Below are positions 14,931 through 62,861 of a stretch of 64,000 bases of DNA, one piece after another. Below the pieces are notes generated by a model. That model was not told the origin of the DNA. It was given only the letters and a program-made list of their open reading frames with translations, and ran no database searches. Origin of the DNA: Chloroflexota bacterium. Its GTDB lineage: Bacteria > Chloroflexota > Anaerolineae > UBA4142 > SHND01. The stretch spans positions 62,001 through 126,000 of the forward strand of contig JACQWQ010000026.1 of assembly GCA_016209205.1 (NCBI GenBank), given 5' to 3'. The position numbers and the translations under genes were made by a program. The first letter of the stretch is position 1; every line of letters begins with the position of its first letter.

Positions 14931-15367
14931 CAAGACCTGACACAGTACATCACAAATGTCATTTCGAACGGAACGCAGTGGAGTGAGAAATCCTTCGGCT
15001 ATGCTCAGAGTTTGTGAAAATATCCCCCTTCTTCGCCGCAATGGACTGCGTTACCGCAACATCTAGTAGGTCATTGGTTGTGTCCATACTAGATATGGGC
15101 GCAAGCCGTCTACGGAGTGTCCGCCAACCGAGTGATCCACGAAGGACACAAAGCACACGAAGAATCTTGGTGCCCTTCGTGTCCTTCGTGGATCATACAG
15201 CCCCCGCGGGCTGAGCATCTCGAAATGACAGTTTCCCAAATTGTGATGTACTGTGACAAGTTTTCAAGCCGTACGTTTCACATATCGCGTGCGTCGTGTA
15301 CATCGCGAATCGTGCAAGTGACGCGTACGCTGCGATGTATGTCATCGCAAGAATCCTGTCAGGTCTC
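14931..15367. mobile_element. Four-level nested palindromic elements between kinase and regulator
   Basis: The outermost element has ends AAGACCTGACA (14932 onwards) and TGTCAGGTCT (ending 15366). Inside lies an element with ends CAGTACATCACAA (14943-14955) and TTGTGATGTACTG (15241-15253), flanked by the duplication TGACA (14938-14942 and 15254-15258). Inside that are ends TGTCATTTCGA (14957-14967) and TCGAAATGACA (15220-15230). A 77-bp element (15119-15195), identical to one at 62386-62462, lies in the centre. No transposase gene is present. The outer end supplies the TGA stop of the kinase gene. Confidence 0.85.
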
Positions 15368-61799: not shown

Positions 61800-61920
61800 G
61801 GAAGAGTGCGATAGTGCGATAGTGCGATAGTGCGATAGTGCGATAGTGCGGATGAACTGCATCCGAGCAATCGTGCGGTAGTGTAATAGTGCGATATGCG
61901 ATATGCGATTTGGGATTTAT
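61800..61920. repeat. TGCGATAG octamer array
   Basis: Five TGCGATAG units at 61807-61848, then degenerate GCGGATGAACTGCATCCG and TGCGATATGCGATTTG words to about 61920. It interrupts the operon between the permease and the small gene. Confidence 0.88.
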
Positions 61921-61998: not shown

Positions 61999-62262
61999 AT
62001 GATGGAAGCGACAAAAACACAAGTGAGGCAACCGGTAACATTGGACGAGATTTTGCCAGTGATACACCGACTCCTCCCTTCCGAGAAGCTAGTTCTCATT
62101 CGGATCCTTGCGGATGATCTCGCCGAAGAAACCAATGTTTTGACACACATACCGCCGGGCGTCTATGAGTTGTACACTCCGTACGAGATTGAGGGGCTTA
62201 CGGACGAGATGATCAAGCGCTTTGAATCTCTACCAAAACCAGTCATTCAAGATGCGAATTAA
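61999..62262 (+). CDS. Small acidic protein paired with a retropepsin-like gene
   Basis: About 87 residues from the ATG at 61999 (next ATG 62002; the frame opens at 61957). It reads QPVTLDEILPVIHRLLPSEK then LVLIRILADDLAEE, and TPYEIEGLTDEMIKRFESL. It looks mostly helical and has no signal peptide. It resembles the small proteins that often precede retropepsin-like aspartic proteases, in the style of antitoxin-like partner proteins, but I do not recognise a named family. Its stop overlaps the ATG of the next gene (62252) by eleven bases, so the two are translationally coupled. Confidence 0.65.
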   Translation: MMEATKTQVRQPVTLDEILPVIHRLLPSEKLVLIRILADDLAEETNVLTHIPPGVYELYTPYEIEGLTDEMIKRFESLPKPVIQDAN

Positions 62263-62765
62263 GTATTCCTTGGTGCAACCCCAATACGGTAATGTTGGAC
62301 GGTTGCCAATGTTACCTTTGACGCTTTCCTTTTCTGGGCAAGAGCGCGAGGTAATTGGGTTGGTGGATAGCGGCGCAATGCTGAATGATCCACGAAGGAC
62401 ACGAAGGGCACCAAGATTCTTCGTGTGCTTTGTGTCCTTCGTGGATCACTCGGTTGGCGGACATGCTGAACGCACGTCGCCAACCTCTGTATGTTCTCCC
62501 ATACCACATCGGTTTGGAATTGGGAGCAAGATGGGATGCAGAAGCAGCAACTTTGTCGTTAGGCGGGAGCTTTCGCGGTGTACCAGCAATGGAGCTTGCT
62601 GTAGTGGGAAGTGTGGGTTCTTTTCTGCCCGTCAATCTTTTTTTTGCTTGGTCGCAGAGTGACGACGTTAGAGTCATCTTGGGTCAATACAACTTTTTTC
62701 AAGAATACGACGTTCATTTTTATCGCTCGCAATTTGCATTTGAAGTCAATCCCAAATCAAGGTGA
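62252..62765 (+). pseudogene. Retropepsin-like aspartic protease gene interrupted by an 85-bp insertion
   Basis: Starts at ATG 62252 (MRIKYSLVQPQYGNVGRLPM). The first part ends GLVDSGAMLN, containing the aspartic-protease DSGA motif. At 62386 a 77-bp palindromic element plus one 8-bp duplication (ATGCTGAA at 62378-62385 and 62463-62470) shifts the frame. Downstream, in the third frame, the protein continues LYVLPYHIGLELGARWDAEA and ends with DDVRVILGQYNFFQEYDVHF and RSQFAFEVNPKSR. Removing exactly 85 bp restores one open frame of about 142 codons. The restored protein resembles bacterial retropepsin-like proteins. As it stands it is probably inactive. Confidence 0.88.
62386..62462. mobile_element. 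77-bp palindromic mobile element, recently inserted
   Basis: TGATCCACGAAGGACAC (62386-62402) is inverted at 62433-62449, followed by a 14-bp tail ending GGCGGAC. It is identical over all 77 bp to the reverse complement of 15119-15195. Flanking ATGCTGAA copies are the target duplication. There is no coding capacity; a transposase must act in trans. Confidence 0.93.
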
Positions 62766-62861
62766 GCGGTTATCGCGTATCGCGTATCGCAAAGCGCATA
62801 TCGTATTGACATTTCCGTTCTTGCGATACGCGATAGGCAATACGCTATCCGCGGAGGCATC
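62766..62861. repeat. GCGTATCGC-type short repeats
   Basis: TATCGCGTATCGCAAAGCGCATATCG words, 7-bp type as at 53380. GGAGG of the next gene lies at 62852. Confidence 0.75.

Follow-up and report, generated by a model that had tools for sequence, protein, structure and literature searches.

A gene-less two-hairpin mobile element that interrupts a retropepsin-like gene in a Chloroflexota bacterium, with a split TGWT target and a possible integron-type mode of movement

The window, by which we mean the whole stretch of 64,000 nucleotides analysed here, contains a retropepsin-like gene broken by a palindromic sequence of which a second copy lies elsewhere in the same stretch: positions 62386–62462 are the exact reverse complement of 15119–15195 over 77 bp. 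The locus raises the questions of what was inserted, where the insertion ends and which enzyme placed it there. An earlier note on this DNA proposed a recently moved, non-autonomous element of 77 bp with a 14-bp asymmetric tail, bounded by an 8-bp target duplication and moved by a DDE-type transposase. The recent movement of a non-autonomous element into the gene is borne out by the identical copies, by uninterrupted homologues and by a length of 106–124 bp that leaves no room for a gene; the proposed length, tail, duplication and enzyme have to be given up. The features discussed are as follows.

62252–62387, + strand: 5′ part of the interrupted retropepsin-like gene, MRIKYS...DSGAMLN (homologue alignment)
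62386–62387, + strand: host TG, left half of the split target TG^WT (fam1 copies)
62386–62448, no strand: hairpin 1, a long palindrome, TGATCC...GGATCA (folding)
62388–62493, + strand: the fam1 element, ATCCACG...CTCTGTATG, 106 bp (copies, empty site in homologues and, for the cut, fam2 and irregular copies)
62452–62485, no strand: hairpin 2, a 14-bp stem with one extra base, GGTTGGCG...CGCCAACC (copies and folding)
62494–62495, + strand: host TT, right half of the split target (copies; homologues have N-V-L-P there)
62494–62765, + strand: 3′ part of the interrupted gene, VLPYHIG...NPKSR and stop (homologue alignment)
15119–15195, − strand: truncated fam1 copy, comprising hairpin 1 and no more than the beginning of hairpin 2 (copy comparison)

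The element, fam1, consists of hairpin 1 followed by hairpin 2 and carries no gene. Its own genome (G000; 6.38 Mb in 279 contigs) contains 12 perfect copies of the 77-mer and 11 further copies at 97–100% identity, and 22 of these 23 extend rightward into the second hairpin, the beginning of which is what had been described as the asymmetric tail. The right side is exact as far as CTCTGTATG in 18 copies, exact but 2–3 bp short in L002 and L005, and altered in L021 (one change) and L022 (several changes); the sole exception is the copy at 15119–15195, which stops inside hairpin 2. Over the loci fetched, a regular expression gave 28 distinct full copies, of 106 bp (n = 20), 107 bp (n = 5) and 124 bp (n = 3), the expression missing L002 and L018; hairpin 2 alone, with up to three mismatches, has 47 matches in G000. 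Most copies are single and scattered, a few are in tandem, some are nested and several lie inside genes. fam1 is a genuine mobile element: it carries no gene, is present in many copies and has been active recently. In the window at 14957–15230 the truncated copy is seen to lie between inverted CATTTCGA-type repeats, which belong to a separate repeat family.

These copies also dispose of the target duplication. The octamer ATGCTGAA is indeed found on both sides of the 77 bp, at 62378–62385 and 62463–62470, and it is the one point in favour of a DDE-transposase MITE of 77 bp. Because 22 of the 23 copies continue to the right with the second hairpin, the right-hand ATGCTGAA is part of the interior of hairpin 2 and not a duplication. 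The left-hand ATGCTGAA is made up of native codons of the gene; it stands at the window copy only among the 23 left flanks, and since no other left flank has it, its match to the interior of hairpin 2 is read as coincidence. Other copies lack such a duplication, a finding that the earlier note had itself named beforehand as counting against its proposal. The ends of fam1 are not inverted repeats of each other, as those of a DDE MITE would be, and the homologues indicate an insert of 106 bp. A DDE MITE with an 8-bp duplication is thus refuted by the copies, and we give it next to no credence.

The protease-like protein is matched in nine of 20 genomes of the order, G000 included, and has no match to a Pfam family. 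Its three closest relatives are uninterrupted, reading DSGATINVLPY, DSGATVNVLPY and DSGAMMNVLP (the last with one stop at another place in the frame) against DSGAMLN / VLPY in the window. The insertion therefore lies between ...AATG and TTCTCC, and exactly 106 bp have to be removed. It had been claimed that removal of 85 bp restores a single open frame. It does leave an open frame, but not uniquely, since removal of 106 bp equally leaves one, the two lengths agreeing modulo 3; the 85-bp removal would, in addition, leave seven residues (ARRQPLY) that are lacking in every homologue aligned across that point. A small open frame at 61999–62262 overlaps the start of the protease-like gene, possibly forming a two-gene unit with it, and the pair is flanked by GCGATAGT tandem units and GCGTATCGC-type inverted repeats (61800–61920 and 62766–62850).

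Empty sites were also reconstructed at other copies, where ten frames were joined and six of them run against Pfam. An NB-ARC domain (1–224) spans the fam1 junction at 138, a YNCE propeller (124–211) spans that at 199 and a GAF domain spans a junction in a sub-piece; a GH30C match adjoins its junction, and two of the six joined frames have no Pfam family. Open-frame length across the joins showed no difference between exact removal, removal shifted by +1 or +2 and the element left in place (12, 9, 11 and 14 of 28, respectively).

Outside G000, hairpin 2 with up to three mismatches has no match in 395 other genomes sampled from the class. A 108-bp query matches 11 of 39 relatives, among the matches listed through the hairpin 1 palindrome only, and none of five same-genus genomes. 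Neither the first pattern for hairpin 2 nor its relaxed version had a match in the genome collection, and there was none in viral contigs either, G000 being possibly absent from both; the 106-bp element has no match in plasmids and phages. As a known RNA family the element was rejected, there being four sub-threshold matches only, three of them to miRNA-type hairpins and lying over the element. A literature search with the letters of the palindrome listed unrelated papers, and among the papers listed for scattered gene-less attC elements there was no account of them, the attG paper Loot 2024 lying outside the scope. As a separate observation, stand-alone CCACGAAGGACACGAAG...CTTCGTGTCCTTCGTGG palindromes without hairpin 2 occur in 11 of the 39 relatives (G007, G008, G009, G012–G016, G025, G030 and G038; loci L056–L083), and a letter search of papers found no description of these.

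Where fam1 ends was read from its copies and from other families at the same target. At a fixed offset 3′ of hairpin 2, TGWT stands in 36 of 45 readable copies (TGAT 15, TGTT 21; 46 copies were found, one at a fetched edge) against a background of 0.8%. The left ends of the 28 full copies read TGAT (21), TGTT (4) or CGAT (3), and in 14 of the 28 the left and right tetranucleotides are unlike. With bodies that are near-identical, such unlike ends exclude any duplication longer than 2 bp; one of just TG may be compatible with the fam1 data taken alone. Nine copies that are identical over 108 bp have TGAT (five) or TGTT (four) at the right end, a split that is unlike a strict base-pairing guide. 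WT is present on the right at all 27 regular fam1 sites, and the left side of the 23 near-identical copies is TG in 21 and CG in two; the G at −1 in the 27-site alignment is imposed by the search pattern and is less constrained in the 23-copy set, and some decayed copies lack the left TG/CG. In the 27-site alignment C at +3 and CG at +6/+7 are favoured 3′ of WT (P from 5e-5 to 9e-4 per position, uncorrected), and the left host flank has G at −12 in 18 sites and C at −7 and −6 in 14 and 15. The register adopted for the window copy is host TG, element, host WT; taken by itself, this copy would also allow edges as much as 2 bp further left (62386–62491).

Two further repeat families share this target.

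L197 (same place as L152), L158, L175, L194 and L230, e.g. L175:8815–8908: copies of fam2
L144:6506–6714, L196:9982–10190, L168 and L151: copies of fam3

The 94-bp two-hairpin element fam2 has five identical copies in a 1.86-Mb pool that includes some overlap, inserted at TG^TT, TG^AT, CG^TT, TG^AT and TG^TT. Two of them sit at a fam1 TGAT, one of these within fam1 between its hairpins, and one is at a fam1 right end. These sites therefore exclude a cut before TG and leave TG^WT or T^GWT. The third family, fam3, is a longer non-coding repeat of at least 209 bp with an unsettled left edge; its end shows G and then WT in four of four copies. Two of these stand directly 5′ of fam1, and one lies within the tail of a gene for a tyrosine recombinase. 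In our reading the irregular L002 and L005 would be regular under TG^WT, except that they fall slightly short on the right, and where the left end is CGAT these letters would close a different inserted family (fam2 in L014, fam3 in L013 and L046).

On the bottom strand fam1 both ends in AWCA and abuts AWCA, and this brings in an alternative in which fam1 is a PATE/MITE of the IS200/IS605 kind. An HUH-Y1 transposase would read hairpin 2 as the left end and hairpin 1 as the right end of the bottom strand and insert a single-stranded circle 3′ of AWC(A). Two near-terminal hairpins, no duplication, a short conserved target and the lack of a gene all suit such an element, and PATEs with these features are described in extracts of PMC3119063. 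In addition, extracts of PMC6006769 pair class 3 Y1 proteins with hairpins that have a CnGA foot, and the foot of hairpin 2 is CAGA in 25 of its 32 distinct sequences. No class 3 Y1 protein was found in G000, however; a cut after the full AWCA, which fam1 alone would permit, is ruled out by fam2; and a single enzyme would need to act on families whose hairpins differ and to accept A or T freely at W. A strand test by local GC skew, a weak one, gave no replication-strand bias (22 of 46 copies at 5 kb, 26 of 46 at 10 and at 20 kb).

The resident Y1 genes bear on the same alternative. Four Y1 transposases of G000 exceed the Pfam cut-off, and eight are found at E up to 10. L031 is an IS200-type TnpA (NF033573, 92.5 bits against a cut-off of 55), and the NF047646 cut-off is exceeded by three REP-associated Y1 genes, L032, L034 and L137, but not by L033; candidate enzymes are thus at hand. 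The fetched flanks of the four over-cut-off loci contain no fam1 ends, however, nor do 30 loci fetched from relatives (of 32 matches), and a decayed fam1 remnant about 0.8 kb from a sub-threshold Y1-like match is the only association. L031 with its palindromic array was tried as a partner of fam1 and differs in sequence. That array (L031:1860–2175) is a tandem one upstream of the tnpA gene, and fragments of its unit occur at other genome sites. All in all the Y1 alternative, the chief competitor of the integron-type reading set out below, seems unlikely to us and is ranked beneath that reading. Rolling-circle mobilization of the IS91 kind can point to one Y2 transposase gene in G000 (L124). 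Its fetched flanks are without fam1 ends, on which ground it was rejected, and both ends of fam1 are exact; its probability is very small.

Predicted DNA folding gives two hairpins on each strand of fam1 (z-scores −8.1 and −9.0). Pairing holds for 96.7% of cells over the 32 distinct sequences of hairpin 2, in which the extra base keeps its position. At one pair both partners change (C-G 14, T-A 14), a count of such pairs reached by 337 of 500 shuffles, and the cell count was reached by none of the 500; the putative stem is modestly supported by this covariation. When the ends are joined, the bottom strand forms an outer stem over the cut, whose 13 bp are capped by the size of the piece folded, then a 5/2 spacer without pairing and, with its extra base, the stem of hairpin 2; the basal arms of hairpin 1 can likewise pair around hairpin 2 in a circle. 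This fold is alike in three of the four structures printed, with L022 slightly different. The bottom strand is the more stable for joined-end pieces of 12 of 12 distinct fam1 elements and of fam2. For the whole fam1 circle the top strand is slightly more stable (−33.1 versus −32.3), as it is marginally for the one native site folded (−17.6 versus −17.2) and somewhat for fam3.

A full-length integron integrase is encoded at C231 (322 amino acids, no internal stop, 462 bits against a cut-off of 265). Its closest solved relative is IntI4 (2a3v), a Vibrio cholerae protein. Broken integron integrase copies lie at C49 (L194) and C156 (L195), the former with a fam2 copy about 3.5 kb away. Two attC-like sites recognized by eye adjoin the C231 gene; both are of the form TAACGGTTGGGTTCAG...CTGCAACC...GTT, with GGTTGGG...CAACC..GTT. 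A strict attC scan around the three integrase loci returned nothing, missing even both of these, a pattern fitted to them recovers one of the two, and a relaxed scan gave over 30 noise-like matches. GGTTGG and CAACC are common to the by-eye sites and hairpin 2 at corresponding places, a weak resemblance because the two are complementary to each other. No attI site was identified, and near the full-length gene only a degenerate fam1 copy was seen, about 9 kb off. Since an integrase exceeds the cut-off in 18 of 40 genomes, G000 included, its presence alone says little; 17 of the 39 relatives have one without fam1.

The enzyme might instead be another resident tyrosine recombinase acting by an attC-like mechanism, for example the four-copy IntI-like family of C271, C36, C160 and C188 (L141, L197, L196 and L144), whose members share about 67–81% DNA identity in their longer pieces. 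This family fits the integrase model without the integron-specific segment. A hairpin-1-like palindrome lies shortly upstream of the C271 and C160 genes, fam1 and fam2 lie about 0.7 kb from the C36 gene, and the preference in the host flanks is for G^WTC..CG, where IntI would be expected to use a purine-rich box. Within the side windows printed, however, no gene of the four has fam1 or fam2 ends as its immediate boundaries, and the flank preference becomes modest once corrected for the positions tested. The palindromes upstream of two such genes, together with the failure of the strict scan at the native sites, count for this alternative and against the integron-type reading; we still regard the alternative as improbable.

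We favour, at a little under even chances, the reading of fam1 as a gene-less integron-cassette-like element scattered by an integrase at G^WT. The grounds are the split G^WT core without duplication, the free choice of W, the use of one core by more than one family, the fold of the circle and the full-length IntI gene; weighed against them were R boxes off consensus, the palindromic bodies, the lack of linkage and of attI, and the mixed strand stability. The palindromes of fam1 and fam2 run along the whole body, for which a cassette offers no reason. The likely, if unproven, mechanism is single-strand or circle recombination of the integron kind at G^WT. Single-stranded or circular fam1 would adopt an attC-like fold: its outer stem would hold the cut, its spacer would be asymmetric and unpaired, and its inner stem would carry an extra-helical base. 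An integron-type tyrosine recombinase, probably the resident IntI, would then insert this molecule into duplex DNA, with G^WT as the minimal core, giving host G / WT...G / WT host with no duplication, and repeated rounds would scatter copies over the genome, some of them tandem or nested and some within genes. We infer the role of IntI, the adjoining sites as attC, the folded strand or circle as intermediate and movement that is still going on.

A broader proposition, which we hold more tentatively and with more doubt than belief, is that an integron-type integrase underlies a MITE-like invasion, in which several families of gene-less miniature cassettes, kept by their attC-like fold alone, spread over the whole genome via G^WT sites and enter genes, and the integron serves as an intragenomic transposition engine. 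If this is a burst of identical gene-less cassettes, an attC-like fold alone would suffice for a selfish element. The proposition, if true, would also suggest an origin for scattered single attC-like sites and provide a natural set of some 40 sites showing what an environmental recombinase accepts. Should the Y1 alternative be true, fam1 would still be a compact element with a target split by the cut.

Several known systems resemble fam1 in part. REP/REPIN sequences with RAYT (TnpA-REP) share short palindromes in many copies, and RAYT genes are present in G000. In contrast to them, fam1 copies are precise inserts that do not adjoin RAYT genes, several of them lying inside genes, no fam1 ends occur at RAYT loci, and the REP foot (GTAG/GTGG; GT[AG]G) is replaced by CAGA in 25 and CAAA in five of the 32 distinct hairpin 2 sequences. 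PATEs, which are IS200/IS605-related, have near-terminal palindromes, no terminal inverted repeats, no target duplication and no transposase gene (PMC3119063, in extract), and fam1 has the same layout; it differs in that no parent IS with its ends was found (four Y1 loci here, 30 from relatives), in that the target is split by the cut and in that more than one family uses the same core. CALINs, the lone attC sites of IntegronFinder, likewise stand away from an integrase, but they are clusters of cassette sites, whereas fam1 is gene-less and mostly single.

The closest comparison is with the integron. Integron cassettes are able to enter secondary sites, which were first summarized as GWT. In the extracts consulted of PMC10127599, such sites are described as GNT, A is accepted in place of T and cleavage of GAT between G and A is reported; further literature was cited in extract (PMC5934647, PMC11389934, PMC12772301, PMC9024848 and PMC11023631). 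Against a gene-bearing cassette in an attI array, fam1 is a gene-less element of 106–124 bp with a wholly palindromic body and tens of scattered copies. Its putative boxes, GTGGATC and G(A/T)TCCAC, and those of fam2, CCGAAC and GTTCGGG, depart from the R-box consensus RYYYAAC/GTTRRRY given in part of PMC12901181, as do the by-eye sites adjoining IntI. Like a cassette at a secondary (attG-type) site, fam1 shows no duplication, a G^(A/T)T junction, a WT start and a G end, and the attC junction G^TT (A^C on the bottom strand) has its counterpart in G^WT at five of five fam2 sites (T^GWT being possible there) and WT at 27 of 27 for fam1. The attC anatomy in extracts of PMC2727003 comprises an outer complementarity of 9–11 nt and two or three extra-helical bases. 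The joined ends of fam1 fold closely alike, with a long outer complementarity in which the cut lies, in place of the R stem, an unpaired asymmetric spacer, and an inner stem, in place of the L stem, that has one extra-helical base.
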